Assembly (NCBI RefSeq): GCF_021631985.1
Contig: NZ_CP070225.1
Location: forward strand, 1 to 64,000
Origin: Sandaracinus amylolyticus
GTDB taxonomy: Bacteria; Myxococcota_A; Polyangia; Polyangiales; Sandaracinaceae
Direction: 5' to 3'
Length of the DNA stretch: 64,000 bases
This document shows positions 38,464-49,419 of the stretch, in pieces (the stretch's first letter is position 1; each line of letters opens with the position of its first letter). Below the pieces are notes generated by a model. That model searched no databases. It saw nothing but the letters and a program-made list of their open reading frames with translations, and was not told where the DNA came from. Both the position numbers and the translations under genes were made by a program.

Positions 38464-41400
38464 TCACTCCGCGGCGATCGGCTCGGGCTCGATCGCGGCG
38501 ATCGGCGCGCGGGCTTCCGTCTCGTCGTCCTCGCCGATCGTCGGCGGCAGCAGCTTGTACATGATCGGCGTGACGATGCGCGCGAGCAGCGTGGAGCTCA
38601 CGAGCCCGCCGAGGATGACCCACGCGAGCGGCGAGTAGAGCGGCGAGCGCTCGAGCGCGAGCGGCACGAGACCGCCGATCGCGGTGAGCGTCGTCAGCAG
38701 GATCGGCACGAAGCGCGTCTCGCCGGCGCGCTGGATCGCCTCGTCGAGCGACGCGCCCTCCTCGCGCAGCTGGTTCGTGAAGTCGACGAGCAGGATCGAG
38801 TTCTTCACCTCGATGCCCATCAGCGCGACGAAGCCGATCATCGCGGTGAACGAGAGCGTGTTTCCCGTGATCAGCAGCGCGACGAGGCCGCCGATCACGC
38901 CGAGCGGGATCACCGACGCGACGATGAGCGTGCCGCGGAACGTGCGGAACTCGAGCACGAGCACCGCGAGGATGCCGAACGCCGCGACGATGATCGCGGA
39001 GCCGAGCCCGCCGAAGCTGCGCGCGCGGCTCTCGACCTCGCCCGCGACGACGAGCCGCACGCCCGAGGGCAACGACACGCCCGCGAGCCGCGAGAGCACG
39101 TCGCGCGTCACGCGATCGGTGTTCTCGCCGGTGCGCGTGAACGCGGTGACCGTCGCGCTGCGCGTGCCGTCGTAGTGACGGATCGTGGTGGGCGAGGGCT
39201 CGAGCTCGATCGCCGCGATCGCGGAGAGCGGGACTGCGCCGCCGTCGCGCGTCGGGACGAAGACCTGCTCCAGCGTCTCGAGCGTCGGGCGCGACGCACC
39301 GAGCGTGAGATCGGGCGCTTCGTCGCGCGCGAGCACCACGCGGATGTCGCGCGCGTCGTCGTCACCGGGATGGCGGAAGCGCCCCGCGGGCACACCGCCG
39401 ATCGCGAGGCGGATCGCGCGATCGACCTCCGACGCGACCGCGCCGAGCGCGGCGGCGCGCGTCTCGTCGACCCGCACCCGCAGATCGGTGCGGCGCTCGC
39501 GCGCGGGGTTCACCACGTCGCGCGTGCCCGGCGTCGCGGCCAGCACCGCTTCGACGCGCGCCGCCGCGTCGGCGAGCGACTCCACGTGGTCGCCCATGAG
39601 GCGCATCGCGATCGGCGCCTCGAGCGGCGGGCCGTTCTCGAACTCGAGGAGGCGGATGCGCGCGCCGGGGTACGACGCGAGCTCCTCGCGCAGGCGATCG
39701 AGCAGGGCCGGCGAGTGATCGGGATCGAAGTGATCGAGCGATGCGAAGACCTCTCCGATGTTCGCGCGCTCGTTCTGGACCGGCACGTTGTAGTAGACGA
39801 GCGGGTTGCCCTTGCCGACGTTCGCGACCTGCCACGCGATCTCGTCGTGCGACGCGAGCACGCGCTCGACGAAGCGCGTCGCGCGATCGGTCTCGGCGAG
39901 GCTCGCGCCCTCTTCGGTCTCGACGCGCACCAGGAACTGCGCGGTGCCCGCCTTGGGGAAGAGCGAGAACCCGATCCGCGGCACCAGCGCCATGCTGCCC
40001 ACGAAGAGCGCGATCGCCGCGACCAGCGTGAGCTTCGGCCAGCGCAGCGCGACCGAGAGCACCGGGCGATAGCTGCCCTCGATCACGTGCATCATCCCGC
40101 GGAACACGACGTTGCCGTGCTCGGCCTCGGGCTTGAGCACGCGGCTCGCGAGGAAGGGCACGACCGTGAGCGAGACGAGCAGCGACGCGGCGACGGTGAG
40201 CACCACCGCGAGCGGCAGGCTGCGGATGAATTCGCCCGACGTGCCGGGGAGCGCGAGCAGCGGCACGAACGCGAGGATCAGCGTCGCGGTGCAGCCGAGC
40301 ACCGAGAGCGTGATCTGCTTGGTCGCGAGGATCGCGGCCTCGCGCGGCGTGTGCCCGAGGCGCAGGAAGCGCGCGATGTTCTCGACCACGACGACCGAGT
40401 CGTCGACCAAGAGGCCGAGCGCGATCACGAACCCGACGATCGAGAGCTGGTTGATGCCGTAGCCCGCGCCGAAGAGCATCGTGAGCCCGACCGCGATCGA
40501 GAGCGGGATCGAGATCATCACGACGACCGACGCACGCACGCCGAGCGGCAGGAGCGTCACCAGCACGAGCAGGATCGCGAGCACGAAGTCGCGCGCGAAG
40601 CCCGAGAGTCGGTGCTCGACGTTGTGCGACTGGTCGAACGTGCGCGCGAGCGTGACGCCCTCGGGCAGCGTGGGCTCGAACGAGGCGAGCGCCTCCTCGA
40701 TGCCGTTGCGCACCGTGAAGATGTTCTGCCCTTCGCGCTGGTTGACCGCGACCGTGACCGCGCGACGTCCGTTCACGCGCACGAGGTGCACCGCTTCGGC
40801 ATCGCCGAACGTGACGTTCGCGACGTCGCGCACCCGCACCACGCGTCCTGCGCTCGCGCGCACCACGGTGTCGCGCACCGCGTCCACGCTCTCGTAGTCG
40901 CCGCGCGTCTGCACCGTGAAGCGACGCGCGCCGGCCTCGACGCTGCCCGCGGGGATCGTGCGGCTCTCCGCGCTCACCGCGCCGAGGATCTCCGCGGGCG
41001 AGATCCCGAGCGCGCGCATCCGCCCGAGGTCGAGCTCGATGCGCAGCTCCTGCGCCGGCAGCCCCGCGATCGTCGCCTCGCCCACGCCGGGCACCGCCTC
41101 CAGTCGATCCTCGAGCGCGCGCGCGAGCCGATCGAGGTCGGCGTAGGTCGCGTCGTCGGACACGAGCCCGACCTGCACGATGTTCACGTTCGCCGCGTTC
41201 GCGGTCTCGAGGTCGAGGCGCACCAGCTCGGAGGGAAGGGTGGGGCGCAGCGTGTCGAGCTCGCGGCGCAGCTCGTCCTCCTTGCGCGGCACGTCGACGC
41301 CCGCCTCGTACTCGACGCGGATCACCGCGAGCCCGTCGCGGATCGTCGTCTCGACGCGGTCGAGATCGTCGAGCGCCTGCACGCGCTCCTCGATCGGATC

Positions 41401-41595
41401 GACGACGAGCTGCTCGAGATCGAGCGGCGATGCGCCGGGCAGCACCGCGACGACGACGAAGACCGGCAGCGGGAACGTCGGGTCCTCGCTCTTCGGGATC
41501 GCGACGAGCGACGAGACGCCCAGCGCGAGCAGCATGCCGAAGACGACGAGGGTGAACTGCCAGCGTTTGACGGCGAATTCCGAGATGTTCGGCAT
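38464..41595 (-). CDS. RND efflux pump permease, HAE1-type
   Basis: 1043 residues, full length for an RND transporter. MPNISEFAVKRWQFTLVVFGMLL is TM1; the TM4 proton-relay motif is GLLVDDSVVVVENIARFL; the second half repeats the fold (GFVALMGIEVKNSILLVDFTNQLREEGASLDEAI). The ATG at 41595 follows GGAGGAG at 8 nt. Third gene of a TolC-MFP-RND operon, 5 bp after the MFP stop. It would export amphiphilic compounds across both membranes by proton exchange; substrates are unknown. Regulation probably by the adjacent histidine kinase and NtrC-type regulator. Confidence 0.93.
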   Translation of the reverse strand: MPNISEFAVKRWQFTLVVFGMLLALGVSSLVAIPKSEDPTFPLPVFVVVAVLPGASPLDLEQLVVDPIEERVQALDDLDRVETTIRDGLAVIRVEYEAGVDVPRKEDELRRELDTLRPTLPSELVRLDLETANAANVNIVQVGLVSDDATYADLDRLARALEDRLEAVPGVGEATIAGLPAQELRIELDLGRMRALGISPAEILGAVSAESRTIPAGSVEAGARRFTVQTRGDYESVDAVRDTVVRASAGRVVRVRDVANVTFGDAEAVHLVRVNGRRAVTVAVNQREGQNIFTVRNGIEEALASFEPTLPEGVTLARTFDQSHNVEHRLSGFARDFVLAILLVLVTLLPLGVRASVVVMISIPLSIAVGLTMLFGAGYGINQLSIVGFVIALGLLVDDSVVVVENIARFLRLGHTPREAAILATKQITLSVLGCTATLILAFVPLLALPGTSGEFIRSLPLAVVLTVAASLLVSLTVVPFLASRVLKPEAEHGNVVFRGMMHVIEGSYRPVLSVALRWPKLTLVAAIALFVGSMALVPRIGFSLFPKAGTAQFLVRVETEEGASLAETDRATRFVERVLASHDEIAWQVANVGKGNPLVYYNVPVQNERANIGEVFASLDHFDPDHSPALLDRLREELASYPGARIRLLEFENGPPLEAPIAMRLMGDHVESLADAAARVEAVLAATPGTRDVVNPARERRTDLRVRVDETRAAALGAVASEVDRAIRLAIGGVPAGRFRHPGDDDARDIRVVLARDEAPDLTLGASRPTLETLEQVFVPTRDGGAVPLSAIAAIELEPSPTTIRHYDGTRSATVTAFTRTGENTDRVTRDVLSRLAGVSLPSGVRLVVAGEVESRARSFGGLGSAIIVAAFGILAVLVLEFRTFRGTLIVASVIPLGVIGGLVALLITGNTLSFTAMIGFVALMGIEVKNSILLVDFTNQLREEGASLDEAIQRAGETRFVPILLTTLTAIGGLVPLALERSPLYSPLAWVILGGLVSSTLLARIVTPIMYKLLPPTIGEDDETEARAPIAAIEPEPIAAE

Positions 41596-41600
41596 GGTGC

Positions 41601-42653
41601 TCACTCCTCCGTGACCGGCTCGACGTGCGCGCCCGGGTCGAGGCGATCCGCGCCGATGCCGATCACCGCGTCGATCTCGTCGAGCGGGCTCGCGAGCACC
41701 GCGTGATCGCCGCGCAGGAACGCGATGCGCACCGGGATGCGGCGCGCGCGCCCGGCGTCGACGACGAGCACCGCGGCATCGTGATCGTGGCCGTCGACCA
41801 GCGCGGAGAGCGGCACGCTCGCGGTGAAGGTCTCGCCGATCGGGATCGACGCACGCCCGACGAGGCCGGTGCGCATCGTGAGCTCGGTGGGCGCGTCGAA
41901 CGCGATCTCGACGTCGTAGGTGCCGCTGCCCATCGAGGGCAGTCGCGCGATCTCGACGATGCGCGCGTCGATCGCGCGCTCGGGCATCGCGTCGAGCGTG
42001 ATCGTCGCGACATCGCCCTCGTGGAGGCGTGCCACCGAGCGATCCGGCACCGCGACGCGCAGCACCCACCCGCGCGCGCGGCTCGCGATCCGCAGCACCG
42101 GCTGGCCGGGGCCGATCACCTCGCGCGCATCGACGAGGCGGGCGTCGACCCAGCCGTCGTCGGGCGCGCGCAGCGTCGAGTAGCGCAGCGCGAACCCCGC
42201 GGCGGCGACGTTCGCGCGCGCGACCTCGGCACCGGTCTGCGCGTCCTCGTAGGTCGCGGAGGGGAGCGAGCCGCTCTCGCTCAGCGTTCGCGCGCGGCCG
42301 AGGTCACGCTCGGCGCGCGTCAGGCTCTCGCGTGCCTGCATCACCGTCGCGCGCGCGGCCGTCGCGTCGAGGCGCGCGAGGACCTGCCCGCGGTGCACCT
42401 CGTCGCCCGCGTCGACGAGCACGTCGAGGATCACGCCGCCGCCCGGGAACCCGAGGTCGAACGTGTCGCGCGGCATCACGAGGCCGGGCAGCTCGAGCGG
42501 CTCGCGCGCCGGCGTCCGATCGATCGCCGCGAGGCGCACCGGGATCGCGGCCGTGGGCTCGGCCTCCTGCGCCGCGGCGGGCTCGGACGTGCTGCATCCG
42601 GAGAGCGCGAGCGCGATCAGCGCGAGCGTGATGGTGGTCGTTCGAATCGTCAT
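41601..42653 (-). CDS. RND periplasmic adaptor (membrane fusion protein) lipoprotein
   Basis: 350 residues. Lipobox LALSGC. Barrel-sandwich lipoyl-like halves (VILDVLVDAGDEVHRGQVLARLDA; LRAPDDGWVDARLVDAREVIGPGQPVLRI), a short alpha-hairpin between (VMQARESLTRAERDLGRARTLSESG), and beta-barrel/membrane-proximal parts (VGRASIPIGETFTASVPLSAL). It links the inner-membrane RND pump to the TolC channel. The ATG at 42653 is preferred because GAGGAG sits 7 nt upstream (42661-42666); an upstream in-frame start at 42668 lacks this. Confidence 0.92.
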   Translation of the reverse strand: MTIRTTTITLALIALALSGCSTSEPAAAQEAEPTAAIPVRLAAIDRTPAREPLELPGLVMPRDTFDLGFPGGGVILDVLVDAGDEVHRGQVLARLDATAARATVMQARESLTRAERDLGRARTLSESGSLPSATYEDAQTGAEVARANVAAAGFALRYSTLRAPDDGWVDARLVDAREVIGPGQPVLRIASRARGWVLRVAVPDRSVARLHEGDVATITLDAMPERAIDARIVEIARLPSMGSGTYDVEIAFDAPTELTMRTGLVGRASIPIGETFTASVPLSALVDGHDHDAAVLVVDAGRARRIPVRIAFLRGDHAVLASPLDEIDAVIGIGADRLDPGAHVEPVTEE

Positions 42654-42682: not shown

Positions 42683-42732
42683 CTCAGCTCGCCCGCGGGG
42701 GCCCTACCGTCCGCGCCCTTCGCGCGCTCCCT
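42683..42732 (-). repeat. Partial copy of the 88-bp dispersed repeat, overlapping the TolC-like gene end
   Basis: Plus-strand AGCTCGCCCGC and CCCTACCGTCCGCGC-CTTCGCGCG-CTCCC match the reverse complement of the triplicated element. The copy supplies the last ~9 codons and the TAG stop of the TolC-like gene (stop at 42704-42706). Confidence 0.6.
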
Positions 42733-44137
42733 CCTCGATCGCGCGGCGCCAGCGTGCGTCGGCCACCGCGAGATCGATCCGGGCGTTCAAGAGGTCGAGG
42801 CGCGCGCGCACCAGCAGCGTCTGCGCGTCGATCACCGGGAGTCCGGTGCCGCGCCCCGCGCGGAACACCTCGGATGCCTGGCGCAGCGCGCGCTCGGCGG
42901 CGTCCACCTGGGCATGGCGCGACGTCATCGCGCTCACCGCGTCGCGACGCTGGCGATCCGCGTCGACGATCTCGGCGCGCACGCCTTCTTCGACCGACTC
43001 TCGCGACGCGCGCGCCGCGGCGATGCGCGACTCGAGCGCGCGCCGCGAGGGATCGGCGGAGAGCGCGTCCGCGAGCTGCCAGCTCACCTGCGCGCCCACG
43101 GCCCACGTCGTCTCGAAGCGCTCCTGCGCCGGCACGAAGCGTGGGTTCGGGTTCGCGAGGAGCACCTCGCCGATCAGATCGAGCCGCGGGATCAGCGCCG
43201 CGTCCTGCACGATGCGCTGGGCCTCGAGCGCCTCGACCTGCGCGCCGATCGCGCGCAGCTCGGAGCGACGCTCGAGCGCGCCTGCGACCGCATCGTCGAT
43301 CGACGCGTGGATCGCGGGCTCGTCGGGGAGCGTGTCGCCGATGGCGTCGGGGATCGTGCTCACGTGCATCACGGTGCGGAGTCGATCCGCGAGCGCGTCG
43401 CGCAGGTGCTCGGTGGTCGCGACGAGCTCGTGCATCGCCGCGACCTGCGCCTCGGCGCGCGACACGTCGGCGCCGGTCGCGAGGCCCGCCTCGAACACGC
43501 GGCGCGCGTCGTCGCGATGGGCCTCCGCGGTGGCGAGCCCGGTGCGCGCGACCACGAGGCCGAGCCGCGCGCGCGCCCAGCCCCAGTAGAGCTGCTCGGC
43601 CTCGAGCGCGAGCCGCGCCTCGGTGGCCTCGAGCGTCGCCTCGCCCGCGTGCACCACGTGCTCGGCCGCGTCGCGACCGGGCAGCACGCGCAGGAAGTAA
43701 TCGCTCACCGGCACCACGAGCTGCGCGCGGACCTGCGTCTGATCGAGCAGCACCGGGAACGAGATCGGCACGCTCACGAGGGGCGTGCCCGGCTCGATCA
43801 CACCACCCTGCGTCTGATCGACCGGCGCCGCGACGAACCCGAGCGTCGGCGCCTCGATCTCCGAGAGGCGCATGTAGCTCGCGCTGAGGCCGACGCGCGG
43901 CACCAGCGCGAGCCACGCACGATCGACGTCGGCGCGCGCGGCCTCGATCTCGGCGAGGCGCGCGCGGCGATCGAAGCTGCTCTCGACGACGGCGCGCACC
44001 ACGTCCTGGGCGCGAAGGCCTCCGGGCACCGCGAGCTCGGCTGCGAGCACGTCGTCGTCCTGCGCGTGCGCGGAGGTGGTCGTCGCGAGCATCGCGCCCA
44101 GCGCGAGCAGCGAGACGGAGCGAATCGTTGGCGACAT
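42704..44137 (-). CDS. TolC-family outer-membrane efflux protein
   Basis: 477 residues with signal peptide ending TTTSAHAQ. Two TolC-type repeats with long helices: ARLAEIEAARADVDRAWLALVPRVGLSASYMRL and SELRAIGAQVEALEAQRIVQDAALIPRLDLIGEV, and the closing ERALRQASEVFRAGRGTGLPVIDAQTLLVRARLDLLNARIDLAVADARWRRA. It forms the outer-membrane channel of the pump. The C-terminal EEGAREGRGR is encoded by a fragment of the dispersed repeat. First gene of the operon. No Shine-Dalgarno, but a sigma-54-like promoter lies 15 nt from the ATG and a nested palindrome further up. Confidence 0.92.
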   Translation of the reverse strand: MSPTIRSVSLLALGAMLATTTSAHAQDDDVLAAELAVPGGLRAQDVVRAVVESSFDRRARLAEIEAARADVDRAWLALVPRVGLSASYMRLSEIEAPTLGFVAAPVDQTQGGVIEPGTPLVSVPISFPVLLDQTQVRAQLVVPVSDYFLRVLPGRDAAEHVVHAGEATLEATEARLALEAEQLYWGWARARLGLVVARTGLATAEAHRDDARRVFEAGLATGADVSRAEAQVAAMHELVATTEHLRDALADRLRTVMHVSTIPDAIGDTLPDEPAIHASIDDAVAGALERRSELRAIGAQVEALEAQRIVQDAALIPRLDLIGEVLLANPNPRFVPAQERFETTWAVGAQVSWQLADALSADPSRRALESRIAAARASRESVEEGVRAEIVDADRQRRDAVSAMTSRHAQVDAAERALRQASEVFRAGRGTGLPVIDAQTLLVRARLDLLNARIDLAVADARWRRAIEEGAREGRGR

Positions 44138-44150
44138 GCCGCCGGCCGTG

Positions 44151-44166
44151 AGCAGCCCTCGTGCCG
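44151..44166 (-). promoter_or_regulatory. Candidate sigma-54 promoter of the efflux operon
   Basis: On the minus strand CGGCAC-N5-CTGCT matches the TGGCAC-N5-TTGCW consensus with both GG and GC at correct spacing. The GC to ATG distance is 15 nt, as for the DUF748-like gene, giving a predicted 3-4 nt leader. A sigma-54-type response regulator is encoded divergently. Confidence 0.5.
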
Positions 44167-44193
44167 CGCGAATTGGCGCGATTCTCCGCGATC

Positions 44194-44235
44194 CCGCTGT
44201 ACGGCGCGCCGACGTGTCGGAGGTCCGTACAGCGG
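44194..44235. promoter_or_regulatory. Nested 42-bp palindrome, candidate upstream activator site
   Basis: Outer arms CCGCTGTACGG (44194-44204) and CCGTACAGCGG (44225-44235) are perfectly complementary. Inside, sharing the same centre, CCGAC (44209-44213) and GTCGG (44216-44220) flank GT. It lies about 30 bp upstream of the sigma-54-like element and between the efflux operon and the kinase gene, which fits an enhancer-binding-protein site. Confidence 0.6.
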
Positions 44236-44272: not shown

Positions 44273-44329
44273 CGAATCTCCCGCGCGGCTCGAAACACGG
44301 CGCGACTTTCGCTAGCGTTCCTCGAGCCG

Positions 44330-45622
44330 ATGGACGCGGAGACCCTCGAACGCCGTTATGCCGAGGCGCGCGACGCGCTGCTCATCGAGTTCGGAACGCG
44401 ATGGGTCGAGCGCAAGCCGCTCCTGATGTCGGTCCAGCGCGGGCTGGTGATCGTCATCATGGTGCTCGCGGGGTACACCGGGCCGCGCTTCTTCGCGCTG
44501 CTCGGGCTCTACGCGCTGACGTTCGCGTTCGATCTCTACGAGCGACATCGCATCCGCCGCACCGAGTGCACCGAGCACCACATCGCGTACGGCACCATGA
44601 TCGCGATGTTCCTGATGGCGGTGGGCTGTGCGTTCACCGGCGGCTACGCGAGCCCGATCCTGCCCGCGCTGCTCGCGCCCGCGGTGATCCCCGCGGCGGC
44701 GTTCGGCCGTCGCCCGCCGACGTGGATCCTGCTCGGCGAGCTCGTGGTGCTGCTGCTCGTGCTGCTCGGCCTGCCCGAGTGGGTGACCGGACCGATCATG
44801 CCGAAGCCGTGGGTCTCGATCGGCATCGGCACGTCGATCGTGTTCGCGGTCTGGGTGAGCGTGGTGAACCTCGTGACGCTGACCGAGGTCTACACGCGTG
44901 CGGCGGTGCACGCGGCGCAGATGCGCGAGGAGGTGCTCGAGCAGCACGAGTCGCGCGCGCGCGGCCTCGAGACGATGGGCGCGAAGGTCGCGCACGAGCT
45001 CAAGAACCCGCTCGCCGCGATCGCCGGCCTCGCGCAGCTGCTGCTGCAGGGCCAGCACGACGACAAGACGCGCGAGCGCCTCTCGGTGATCGCGAGCGAG
45101 GTCGGTCGCATGGAGAAGACGATGCGCGAGTACCTCGCGTTCTCGCGACCGCTCGACGAGGTGCGCCCGATGGACGTCGAGCTCGCGACGCTCGCCGACG
45201 ACGTGCTGGTGCTGCTCGAAGGACGTGCGCGCGCGCGCTCGGTGACGCTCGAGCGGACCGGCGAGCGTCTCCGCGCGAGGGTCGATCCCGCGCGCCTGAA
45301 GGAGGCGCTGATCAACCTCGTCGACAACGCGATCGAGGCGTCGTCGGCGGGCGGGCGCGTGACGATCGAGCTCGCGCGCGTTCCCGGCTCGACGCACGTG
45401 CGGGTGCGCGATCGCGGCGAAGGGATCGCGCCCGAGGTGCTCGCGCGCGTGGGCACGCCGTACTTCACGACGCGCAGCGAGGGCACCGGGCTCGGCGTGG
45501 TGATCGCGCGTGCCGCGATCGAGCAGCACGGAGGGACGCTCGCGCTGCACAGCCAGCGCGGCGAGGGCACGCTCGCCGAGATCGTGCTGCCCGACGCCGC
45601 TGCGCCCGCGAGGGCCGCATGA
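44330..45622 (+). CDS. Membrane sensor histidine kinase
   Basis: 430 residues. About five to six membrane helices in residues 30-190 (GLVIVIMVLAGYTG, IAYGTMIAMFLMAVGCAFTGG, LLGELVVLLLVLLGLPEW, IGTSIVFAVWVSVVNLVTL), with almost no periplasmic loop, so it probably senses within the membrane. The H-box is KVAHELKNPLAAIAGL with His222; the N-box NLVDNAIEAS, G1 VRDRGEGI and G2 GTGLGVVIARAAIEQHGG are all intact. It overlaps the response regulator by 4 bp, so they form a two-component pair. Divergent from the efflux operon, its likely target. Confidence 0.92.
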   Translation: MDAETLERRYAEARDALLIEFGTRWVERKPLLMSVQRGLVIVIMVLAGYTGPRFFALLGLYALTFAFDLYERHRIRRTECTEHHIAYGTMIAMFLMAVGCAFTGGYASPILPALLAPAVIPAAAFGRRPPTWILLGELVVLLLVLLGLPEWVTGPIMPKPWVSIGIGTSIVFAVWVSVVNLVTLTEVYTRAAVHAAQMREEVLEQHESRARGLETMGAKVAHELKNPLAAIAGLAQLLLQGQHDDKTRERLSVIASEVGRMEKTMREYLAFSRPLDEVRPMDVELATLADDVLVLLEGRARARSVTLERTGERLRARVDPARLKEALINLVDNAIEASSAGGRVTIELARVPGSTHVRVRDRGEGIAPEVLARVGTPYFTTRSEGTGLGVVIARAAIEQHGGTLALHSQRGEGTLAEIVLPDAAAPARAA

Positions 45623-46977
45623 GCCGCGCGCGGATCCTGCTCGTCGACGACGAGCCGGGCGTCCTCTACATGCTGCGCGAGGTGCTCTCGGAGCGCGGCC
45701 ACGACGTGGTCGCGGTGTCGTCGGGCGCCGCCGCGCTGGGGCACATCGATGCTGCGTCGCTGGTCGTCAGCGATCTCGCGATGCCGGGGATCGATGGTCT
45801 CGAGCTGCTCGCGCACGTGCACGAGCGGAGGCCCGAGCTGCCCTTCGTGCTGATCACCGCGCACGGCAACGAGCGCGTCGCGGTCAGCGCGATGAAGGCG
45901 GGCGCGCACGACTACCTCACGAAGCCGGTCGACATCGACGAGCTGCGGCTCGTGGTGGATCGCGCGCTCGAGCGCTCGCAGCTGCGCACCGAGGTGCGGC
46001 TGATGAAGGCCGAGCGCGCGCTCGGTCGCCGATTGATCGCGGAGAGCGCGGTGATGCGGCGCCTGCTCGAGTCGATCGAGCGCATCGCCGACAAGGACCT
46101 CACGGTGCTGGTGCGCGGCGAGACCGGCAGCGGCAAGGAGCTCGTCGCGTCGCTGGTGCACGCGCAGAGCCGCCGCGAGAGCGGACCGCTGGTGCGCTTC
46201 AACTGCGCGGCGCTGCCGGCCGAGCTCGCGGAGGCGGAGCTCTTCGGGCACGCCCGCGGCGCGTTCACCGGCGCGGTCGCGACGCGCCGCGGGTTCTTCG
46301 CGGAGGCGGATCGCGGGACGCTCGTGCTCGACGAGATCGGCGAGCTCCCGATGACGCTCCAGCCGAAGCTGCTGCGCGCCCTGCAGGACGGCGAGATCCA
46401 GCCGATCGGTGGGCGCATCGAGAGGGTCGACGTGCGTGTGGTCGCGAGCACGCATCGCGATCTCGCGGCCGAGGTGAAGGCGGGACGGTTCCGCGAGGAT
46501 CTCTACTACCGGCTCGCGGTGGTGGAGCTCGTGGTGCCTCCGCTGCGCGAGCGCCGCGACGAGATCCCTGCGCTCGCGCGCGGCTTCGCCGAGCGATACG
46601 GCGAGCGCTTCGGGATGCCCGACGTCTCGCTGTCCCCGGAGCTGCTCGACGCGCTCTGCCGCGCGGAGTGGCCGGGCAACGTGCGCCAGCTCGAGAACAC
46701 CATCGCGCGCATGGTCGCGCTCTCGGGCCCGCGGGTCGGGCTCGACGCGTTCTTGTCGCCGAGCGCGCCGGCGCCCGAGCCCGACGCCGAGCCGCCCGCC
46801 GAGGGAGAGAGCGACGCCGCGCCGCTGCCGCTGCGCGCGCAGGTCGAGGCGTTCGAGCGTGGATTGGTGGTGCGAGCGCTCGCCGACTGCAAAGGCAATC
46901 AGTCGCACGCCGCGCGCCGATTGGGCATCGGTCGCGCGACGTTGATCGACAAGATGAAGCGCTACGGGATCAAGTGA
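45619..46977 (+). CDS. NtrC-family sigma-54-dependent response regulator
   Basis: 452 residues. Receiver domain residues 1-120 with acidic pair DDE at 10-12, phospho-acceptor Asp52 (VVSDLAMPG) and Lys in LTKPVD. AAA+ domain with Walker A GETGSGKE, canonical GAFTGA loop and Walker B GTLVLDEIGE, R-finger region GRFREDLYYRL. Fis-type HTH at the end (CKGNQSHAARRLGIGRATLIDKMKRYGIK). Phosphorylated by the kinase encoded upstream with ATGA overlap. It probably activates the divergent TolC-MFP-RND operon through the nested palindrome and a sigma-54 promoter. Its stop abuts the convergent phosphoesterase stop with no gap. Confidence 0.93.
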   Translation: MSRARILLVDDEPGVLYMLREVLSERGHDVVAVSSGAAALGHIDAASLVVSDLAMPGIDGLELLAHVHERRPELPFVLITAHGNERVAVSAMKAGAHDYLTKPVDIDELRLVVDRALERSQLRTEVRLMKAERALGRRLIAESAVMRRLLESIERIADKDLTVLVRGETGSGKELVASLVHAQSRRESGPLVRFNCAALPAELAEAELFGHARGAFTGAVATRRGFFAEADRGTLVLDEIGELPMTLQPKLLRALQDGEIQPIGGRIERVDVRVVASTHRDLAAEVKAGRFREDLYYRLAVVELVVPPLRERRDEIPALARGFAERYGERFGMPDVSLSPELLDALCRAEWPGNVRQLENTIARMVALSGPRVGLDAFLSPSAPAPEPDAEPPAEGESDAAPLPLRAQVEAFERGLVVRALADCKGNQSHAARRLGIGRATLIDKMKRYGIK

Positions 46978-48009
46978 CTAACGCGGGTAGGGGAACGAAT
47001 CGACGCTTCCCCACACCGCCGTGTCCGGGTTGAGCAGATCGAATTCGCCCGACTCCGTGTCGCAGCGGATGACCCAGAACGAGTCCTCGTCGTAGCGCGT
47101 CGAGCCGAGCGTCACGTGCCAGCTGCCATATCGGCGCTGGTGGTTGAACCATCGATGCAGGTGGCCCGAGAGCGCGACGAGCACGTTCCCGTGGCGCCCG
47201 AGCACCGCGTGGATGTCGGCGAAATCGGCATCCTCGAGCTCGTCCTCCGCGAGGACGAGCGGGTGGTGGTGGAACATCACGAAGCTCGGCAGTCCCTCAG
47301 CGAGCTGCTCGTCGAGCCAGCGCAGCTGGGCCTCGCCGAAGCTCCCGTAGGTCGTGTCGTATCGCGCGCTCGCCGCGTCCCAGGTGTCGCCGAGCTGACT
47401 GTCGAGCACGATGAATCGGAATCCTCGGTGATCGACCGAGTAATACGAGCGCTCGAGCCCGAGCTTGTCGCGGAAGAGCTCGTGCACGAATTCGCGCGGC
47501 ATCTCCGGGACGAAATAGTCGTGATTGCCGAGCGCGAGGTGCACCGGCATCTCGAACGTCTCGAGCACGCTCGCGACGATGTCGTGCGCCGTGAGGTTCG
47601 AGGGCTCGTAATAGAACATCGGATCGAGCGAGTTGTACTCGTGGATCACGTCGCCCAGGACGAACGCATGCGCGATCGGCATGTCGAGCGCGTGGATGCG
47701 ATCCCGCGCGCCGACGAGGCGCTCGTTCGCGGCGAGGATCGACGTGGTGTCGAGCTCGCCGTTCTCCGGGCCGGTGTACCACTCGTCGATCACGTGAGGA
47801 TCGGAGAGCAGGACGACCTGGAAACAGTTGTCGCGCGAGCAGTCGAGCGGCGGGAGCTCGACGCGCATGCGCAGCGGATCCGGCGGGCGCTGCGGGCCCG
47901 CGTCGGTGGCGGGTGTCGCGGCGTCGGGCGTGGGGGACGCGTCCGAGGAGCCGCAGGCCACGAGCGCGAGGGAAGAGAGCGAAAGGGTGAAGTGAAGCGC
48001 GAGGCGCAT
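46978..48009 (-). CDS. Calcineurin-like metallophosphoesterase lipoprotein
   Basis: 343 residues. Lipobox LALVAC and an Asp/Pro/Ala linker. Metal-binding motifs in order: VVLLSDPHV, FVLGDVIHEY, LALGNHDYF, FVMFHHHPLV, and ALSGHLHRWF, the full set for the class III phosphodiesterase/CpdA-like fold with two metals. It is anchored in the envelope, so the substrate is extracytoplasmic; a nucleotide or phosphodiester is possible but not evident. TACCGT lies 9 nt before the ATG and no Shine-Dalgarno is visible. Confidence 0.88.
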   Translation of the reverse strand: MRLALHFTLSLSSLALVACGSSDASPTPDAATPATDAGPQRPPDPLRMRVELPPLDCSRDNCFQVVLLSDPHVIDEWYTGPENGELDTTSILAANERLVGARDRIHALDMPIAHAFVLGDVIHEYNSLDPMFYYEPSNLTAHDIVASVLETFEMPVHLALGNHDYFVPEMPREFVHELFRDKLGLERSYYSVDHRGFRFIVLDSQLGDTWDAASARYDTTYGSFGEAQLRWLDEQLAEGLPSFVMFHHHPLVLAEDELEDADFADIHAVLGRHGNVLVALSGHLHRWFNHQRRYGSWHVTLGSTRYDEDSFWVIRCDTESGEFDLLNPDTAVWGSVDSFPYPR

Positions 48010-48018
48010 GGCGGCGCG

Positions 48019-48024
48019 ACGGTA
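48019..48024 (-). promoter_or_regulatory. Candidate leaderless -10 element TACCGT
   Basis: TACCGT on the minus strand, 9 nt before the ATG at 48009. A weaker match than the others. Confidence 0.35.
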
Positions 48025-48092
48025 GCGAGCGGTTGCGCCCACAACCATCGCGCTGCGTGACAGTCGCGTGAGGAATCGACGACGCGCTCGGA

Positions 48093-48605
48093 TCAGCGCT
48101 TCTTCGCAGCGGCCTTCTTGGTCGCGGCCTTCTTCACCGGAGCCTTCTTCGCGGCCGCTTTCTTCGCGACTGCCTTCTTCGGCGTCGGGAGCGTCGGAGT
48201 CGGCTTCGCGGGCGTGGTGGCGACTGCTCCGCTCGCGAGCGTCTTCACCAGCGTCTTGGGCGCGACCGCGCGATAGCTCTCGTCGAGCCAGTCGAGGAGC
48301 ATCGGAATCGGCACGTCGTCGTCGACCCCGAACTTCGCGCTCACCCATCCGCTCTTCCCGAGCCCGTACCCGGTCGGCTGCGCGAAGGGGAGCATCAGCG
48401 CGACGTTGTTCGACTCGGGCAGCTTCATGCTCAACGAGAGCCCGGTCGCGTCGGTGAAGAGGAAGCAGAACGTCTTGTTCTTCACCTTGAAGGCCGCGTG
48501 ATCCCACGGCCGATCCTCGTGGGTCCCGGGATAGGCGAGGGCCTTCGCGCGAATCGTCTCTTCGTGCGCCTTGATGTGCGCCGGCGGCTCGGTCGTCGGA
48601 TGCAT
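48093..48605 (-). CDS. MmcQ/YjbR-family protein with histone H1-like basic tail
   Basis: 170 residues. Residues 1-115 match the YjbR/MmcQ fold (LAYPGTHEDRPWDHAAFKVKNKTFCFLF, GWVSAKFG, WLDESYRAVAPKTL). Residues about 130-170 are an Ala/Lys/Pro tail with repeated KKAxxKKA units, as in H1-like bacterial DNA-binding tails. The combination suggests a DNA- or RNA-binding protein; YjbR itself has a DNA-binding-like fold. It lies 12 bp after the NADAR gene and also has a TAGACT 9 nt before its ATG, within the NADAR stop. Confidence 0.82.
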   Translation of the reverse strand: MHPTTEPPAHIKAHEETIRAKALAYPGTHEDRPWDHAAFKVKNKTFCFLFTDATGLSLSMKLPESNNVALMLPFAQPTGYGLGKSGWVSAKFGVDDDVPIPMLLDWLDESYRAVAPKTLVKTLASGAVATTPAKPTPTLPTPKKAVAKKAAAKKAPVKKAATKKAAAKKR

Positions 48606-48614
48606 GCGCCGTCG

Positions 48615-48620
48615 AGTCTA
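48615..48620 (-). promoter_or_regulatory. Candidate leaderless -10 element TAGACT
   Basis: TAGACT on the minus strand lies 9 nt before the ATG at 48605 and its first three bases are the TAG stop of the NADAR gene. Confidence 0.45.
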
Positions 48621-49064
48621 CCGCTCGCTCGCGAGCTTCGCGCGCACGTCCATGAGGATGCGACCGAGCATGTTCTTGCCGCTCCCGTCGCCGCCATCGC
48701 CCCAGTAGTCGTCGTTCTCGGTGTGCTCGACCAGCTTCGCGTCGCCGGTCGCGAGGAGCAGCGCGCGCAGCTCGTCGTGCTGCGAGAACTTCGCCTCGAC
48801 CGCCTCGCGCATGATCGAGACCTTCACCGACTCCCAGTCACGCCGCAGCTTCCGACTCCGATCCCGTCCCAGCCGCGCCGCGATCATCGGCGTCTTCGCG
48901 CGCCGAACGGCGTCGCGGTCCTTCGCGTCGACGAGCTTCTGCGCCTGGAAGTAGTGCTCGCTCGTCGCCCAACGCTCGCCGCGCACGACGATGGGAAATG
49001 GCGCGAAGTTCGAGAATTCCCCGTACTCGTCGGTGACGCTGTAGAACCGAATCACGTTCGTCAT
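48618..49064 (-). CDS. NADAR family protein (YbiA-like N-glycosidase)
   Basis: 148 residues from the ATG at 49064. Typical NADAR motifs: IRFYSVTDEYGEFSNFAPFPI, WATSEHYFQAQKL, DRDAVRRAKTP, REAVEAKFSQHDELRALLLATGDAKLVEHTENDDYWGDGGDGSGKNMLGRILMDVR. The family cleaves N-glycosidic bonds of ADP-ribose derivatives or riboflavin intermediates; some reverse DNA ADP-ribosylation or take part in phage defence. No DarT-like toxin lies nearby. An alternative GTG is two codons upstream. Confidence 0.9.
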   Translation of the reverse strand: MTNVIRFYSVTDEYGEFSNFAPFPIVVRGERWATSEHYFQAQKLVDAKDRDAVRRAKTPMIAARLGRDRSRKLRRDWESVKVSIMREAVEAKFSQHDELRALLLATGDAKLVEHTENDDYWGDGGDGSGKNMLGRILMDVRAKLASER

Positions 49065-49419
49065 CCGCACGAATGTGCCGCACGTCCAATTCGGCTCCAG
49101 TCGCGCGCCTTCGGCGCGCGCTGCCGGAACGCGCGGACGACCGAGAAAGCGCGAAGCGCGCCTCGGTCGTTCGCGCCCTCCTCAGCCCCACAAGCGCGAG
49201 ATCCTCATGCGTGCCGAAGCCGTGCAGCAGGGCGCGGGGCATGGTCCCCGAGCGATCCCGCAGCGAGGGCCACACGACGCATCACCGAGCGTGCATGGTC
49301 CGCGACGCGTGCGTCGCACGCGACGCGGACACTCCGCTTCCCGACGTCTCACCGGCTCGTGATCGGCAGCTCGCGAGGACTAGCGAGGGGATCATGCCCC
49401 GCGCCCGCACCGAAGCGCC
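49065..49419. other. 355-bp intergenic region with three strong hairpins
   Basis: It holds CGCGCGCC-TTC-GGCGCGCG (49102-49120), arms CGACCGAG/CTCGGTCG (49138-49145 and 49162-49169) enclosing a smaller GCGC-GAA-GCGC hairpin, and a 33-bp near-perfect palindrome (49298-49330, arms of 16 with one mismatch). The first part resembles the dispersed repeat (TCGGCTC, CGCGCGC..GCGCG) but too weakly to claim. The last hairpin, about 90 bp after the DUF1552 stop, may end that operon. I see no gene. Confidence 0.65.

Follow-up and report, generated by a model that had tools for sequence, protein, structure and literature searches.

The 192-bp spacer that separates an RND efflux operon of Sandaracinus amylolyticus from a divergent kinase/regulator gene pair is likely to be a sigma-54 control region that acts in both directions and is switched on by that pair, which would thereby activate its own expression. 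As we picture it, the membrane kinase would phosphorylate the NtrC-type regulator, two dimers of which would bind a palindrome in the spacer (at 44197-44232), their site centred ~74 bp upstream of the predicted start of the pump operon and 110 bp upstream of that of the kinase gene; the bound dimers would assemble the AAA+ ring, which would activate two divergent -24/-12 promoters, one for the OMF-MFP-RND genes and one for the regulator pair itself. The original prediction was that the divergent regulator controls the operon with sigma-54 by way of the palindrome, and as a prediction it is supported by the comparative evidence given here; beyond it go a second box on the kinase side, the reading of the palindrome as two operator-like sites that abut, predicted transcripts almost without leaders, and the return of the arrangement beside pumps of other classes. 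Positions are those of the window, the whole stretch of 64,000 nucleotides that was analysed.

Results

Genes for an OMF, an MFP and an RND permease lie side by side and form a tripartite RND efflux operon, upstream of which a histidine kinase gene and a regulator gene run in the opposite direction (Table 1). The pair had been described as intact and divergent, and the domains of both proteins are indeed found: the regulator has the receiver, the AAA+ domain with GAFTGA and the Fis-type HTH of an NtrC-type response regulator, and it scores under the NCBIfam equivalog cut-offs for ntrC (416 of 559 bits), AtoC (397 of 714) and ZraR (345 of 760). A single rpoN gene (one PF04552 match) is present both in this genome (G000) and in G001, the genome of a second species of the same genus. 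Convergent with the regulator pair, positions 46978-49070 hold a metallophosphatase gene, a YjbR gene (48093-48605) and a NADAR-domain gene (48618-49070).

Table 1. Genes and proposed control elements around the spacer.
Feature	Position	Strand	Basis or detail
Outer-membrane efflux protein (TolC-like OMF)	42704..44137	-	Pfam OEP 1.7e-35
RND periplasmic adaptor (MFP)	41601..42653	-	TIGR01730, above cut-off
RND permease, HAE1-like	38464..41595	-	ACR_tran 1.5e-201; top NCBIfam RND_permease_2, under cut-off
Membrane-bound sensor histidine kinase	44330..45622	+	HisKA, HATPase_c
NtrC-type response regulator	45619..46977	+	Receiver, AAA+ with GAFTGA, Fis-type HTH
-24/-12-like element facing efflux operon	44151..44166	-	CGGCACG-AGGG-CTGCT; predicted start ~44140
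Second -24/-12-like element, facing kinase	44298..44313	+	CGGCGCG-ACTT-TCGCT; predicted start ~44324
42-bp double palindrome, proposed operator of response regulator	44194..44235	.	Conserved core 44195-44234
Proposed regulator dimer site A	44197..44214	.	CTGTACGG-CGCG-CCGACG; analogy with related loci, whose sites read TGTCGG-N4-CCGACA
Proposed regulator dimer site B, abutting site A	44215..44232	.	TGTCGG-AGGT-CCGTACAG; analogy with sites of related loci

The sigma-54-like box that was expected just beside the palindrome is there, on the minus strand, with 10 of the 12 consensus letters (TGGCACG-N4-TTGCW-like, GG-N10-GC); the kinase-side box has nine. As the pattern of the pump-side box is not enriched genome-wide (50 matches versus 50 for its reversed control), the motif alone is weak and would by itself prove little; at the genome-wide rate ~0.0008 matches would be expected per 192-bp spacer on both strands (hand arithmetic). 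CTGCT and TCGCT are -12 variants in Nla28 target promoters of Myxococcus xanthus, where sigma-54 promoters with these variants have in vitro and in vivo support and one of these target promoters serves an RND plus ABC efflux locus (PMC9765219). The promoter scan found no sigma-70-type promoter; by eye, a sigma-70-like element, TCGAAA-N17-TAGCGT, can alternatively be read in sequence that overlaps the kinase-side box. Given that this second box faces the kinase from within a conserved block (see below), both transcription units probably use sigma-54.

The palindrome reads CCGCTGTACGG-CGCG-CCGAC-GT-GTCGG-AGGT-CCGTACAGCGG and is, just as it had first been described, a double structure in which perfect outer arms of 11 bp and perfect inner arms of 5 bp share one centre. 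Arms of 11 bp are by themselves not rare: nine palindromes in the 64-kb window have them, and Markov controls gave 1-12. What is uncommon is a concentric inner arm of at least 5 bp, which a single palindrome of the window has and no palindrome of six Markov controls. The exact form is found only in G000 and G001, as a single copy in each genome, and for this reason a shared regulon was rejected; two half-sites near a paralogous locus (L036) fall in repeated coding sequence. An RNA hairpin or terminator was likewise rejected, since the scan found no terminator-like site and both predicted starts are downstream of the palindrome.

What the regulator might recognize is suggested by its relatives. 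When TGTCGG/CCGACA half-site pairs were searched for in 37 kinase-upstream regions, a spacing of 4 bp stood out sharply, with 13 sites spread over 11 of the 37 loci and 0-4 sites at any other spacing. The resulting TGTCGG-N4-CCGACA sites are often tandem, with 18-24 bp between copies, and are carried by EmrAB-type spacers; a genome inspected once the motif had been formulated has a perfect 12/12 site with a second copy 18 bp away. Against this motif the two parts of the palindrome score 8/12 and 9/12, or 17/24 as a tandem (P ~0.007; above 99.3% of palindromised shuffles), which is suggestive, by analogy, of two adjoining 18-bp degenerate copies of the site. The recognition region of the regulator is somewhat different from those of its relatives, and its closest relative, from the second pair of G166, is accompanied by no clear copy of the TGTCGG-N4-CCGACA site. 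Tandem CGTCGG-N4-CCGACG-type sites also occur upstream of a paralogous kinase gene with no pump adjoining (L032 4247-4282, L033 10017-10052).

It is unlikely, in our view, that the palindrome is instead the operator of some other regulator, such as a TetR-type repressor, with the pump on a sigma-70 or ECF promoter. Orthologous RND permeases (62-65% identity) in other genera do lie within MFP-RND operons that, at L091 and L093-L097, adjoin a divergent TetR-like gene and palindromic operators, and the top match in the window to the regulator-site family is just 9/12. However, those operators are of the CTTGACAnTGTCAAG and TAGACACTGTCTA kind and unrelated to the palindrome, so that a remnant TetR operator was also rejected; no TetR gene is found among the genes adjoining the operon, a search of G000 and G001 gave no TetR orthologue (best 38%), and the promoter scan was negative for a sigma-70-type site. 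Since the orthologues face a TetR gene that has no orthologue in G000 or G001, the regulator of the pump was probably exchanged in this genus: the TetR-controlled operons of related genera are alike in their orthologous MFP-RND genes but have a TetR gene and CTTGACAnTGTCAAG operators where the kinase/regulator pair and the palindrome stand here.

Related pairs elsewhere in the order, with regulators 52-65% identical to that of the window, face pumps of several kinds: EmrAB or EmrAB-TolC lies opposite the pair in G108, G166, G028, G013 and G022, and in G033 the facing gene is TolC-like. G166 also has a pair that faces a different MFP-RND operon, and within G000 and G001 there is one that faces an HlyD-ABC exporter. 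On the regulator tree, seven pairs, that of the window among them, form a clade (support 94/89), and six of these are labelled pump-linked; the seventh, the second pair of G166 and sister to the window pair, on inspection faces MFP-RND. The label requires three changes on the tree, versus 8.2 on average after shuffling. That sensor pairs of one kind face several pump types is suggestive of a reusable efflux-control module; pump linkage is not universal, as other branches of the tree face other genes. One branch of the regulator family adjoins genes for secreted trypsin-like proteases (L256, L259, L260, L261).

The boxes recur at these loci as well. On the kinase strand a GG-N10-GC box of at least 9/12 is present in all 11 compared spacers (chance ~0.08 each), reaching at least 10 in eight, and on the pump strand a box of at least 10/12 is present in the RND and ABC loci (chance ~0.01 each); the EmrAB loci keep the -24 part and the TG at the -12 position of the pump-side box, with the C of the -12 usually missing. 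The kinase start codons of G028 and G033 are uncertain, because in these two genomes the reading frame of the kinase extends further upstream and takes in the kinase-side box. Elsewhere in the S. amylolyticus genome, a paralogous pair (L036 439-7500) lies opposite an HlyD gene and the ABC-2 exporter genes that follow it, and each strand has a -24/-12-like box there (10/12 and 11/12). Two pairs of the clade are found together in G166, facing EmrAB-TolC and MFP-RND (L262, L263).

The exact combination of operon and regulator is known from two genomes only. G001 has the same five genes (90-97% identity, tblastn) and a spacer of the same length, in which there are 23 substitutions, none of them within 44151-44166 or 44195-44234. 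Three blocks are conserved: 44150-44168 (19 bp, the box), 44195-44234 (40 bp, the palindrome core) and 44282-44329 (48 bp, upstream of the kinase), the last being the longest and containing the second GG-N10-GC element. For the pump-side box and the palindrome core to be without substitution, P = 0.0002, which is a fair test because both were defined before the comparison, except for trimming of the outermost base pair, which is substituted in G001 and leaves a core with 10-bp arms; adding the kinase-side box, which was defined after the comparison, gives P = 8e-6. At the level of sequence, then, it is conservation and not the motif match that decides the reality of box and palindrome.

The conserved blocks also bear on whether the palindrome might serve the regulator's own expression only, with the pump expressed independently. 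The greater length of the kinase-side block would fit this, as would the own-genome paralogues that have tandem sites upstream of the kinase and no neighbouring pump, yet we consider it quite improbable: the pump-side box is conserved exactly and lies nearer the palindrome, and the box recurs on the pump strand of other RND and ABC loci. It is hardly credible that GC-rich DNA produced the box and the palindrome by chance, as the parity of the box pattern with its reversed control and the commonness of 11-bp arms might suggest, given the absence of the concentric form from the controls, its conservation together with the box, and recurrence in independent loci.

If the spacer is a bidirectional sigma-54 control region, its promoters would lie very close to their genes. 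With transcription placed to start 12 bp after the C of the -12 element (hand arithmetic), the predicted leaders are 3 nt for the OMF gene and 6 nt for the kinase gene; leaders as short as these are unusual. The OMF ATG is the first start codon past an in-frame stop and opens a signal-peptide-like sequence. Read by eye, a ribosome-binding site is evident in front of the downstream MFP and RND genes but not in front of the OMF and kinase genes. From the short leaders and the lack of such sites, near-leaderless transcripts of the OMF and kinase genes are predicted. Predicted leaders elsewhere are 3 nt for the HlyD paralogue (L036/L043) and 2 nt for the EmrA gene of G022.

Discussion

Efflux pumps are usually described under local repressors. 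The original prediction held sigma-54 control of efflux to be uncommon, and uncommon it is, but there are precedents in Nla28 (PMC9765219) and CbrB (PMC6296734). Nla28 of M. xanthus is likewise an NtrC-type regulator, acting on sigma-54 promoters of the form TGGCACG-N4-CTGCT/TCGCT, and its targets include the RND plus ABC efflux locus MXAN7147 and CusAB (MXAN989); however, its role is that of a starvation regulator with wide action, and its half-sites, CT(C/G)CG(C/G)AG, are direct repeats, whereas the pair here is divergent from and adjacent to its pump and the proposed sites are inverted repeats (PMC9765219). CbrB of Pseudomonas putida resembles the present case in combining an NtrC-type regulator with a sigma-N-type promoter and a presumed RND pump, PP2810-13, but it is a global carbon regulator not dedicated to the pump, with different subsites and the involvement of IHF (PMC6296734). 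AtoSC and ZraSR share the kinase/regulator domain architecture and are among the top NCBIfam matches, all under cut-off; they have different targets, and their equivalog cut-offs are not reached here. Control of efflux genes by sigma-54 and NtrC-type regulators is therefore known already. What appears new, as far as the searched literature goes, is the dedicated, pump-adjacent and pump-swapping arrangement, no report of which was found in that incompletely covered literature.

It is tempting to go further and propose a dedicated NtrC-type two-component module with a bidirectional sigma-54 region and nearly leaderless transcripts that has repeatedly been joined to the unrelated pump classes RND, EmrAB-type MFS and ABC within a single order and has taken the place of a TetR repressor on one occasion or more; for this fuller account we consider the case evenly balanced. 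Were it true, a dedicated, self-activating sigma-54 two-component switch reused across pump classes would show how regulators pass from one pump to another, and it would open a route to the signals sensed by these bacteria ahead of pumping. The control of pumps would also join the roles of NtrC-type regulators, of which this group has very many.
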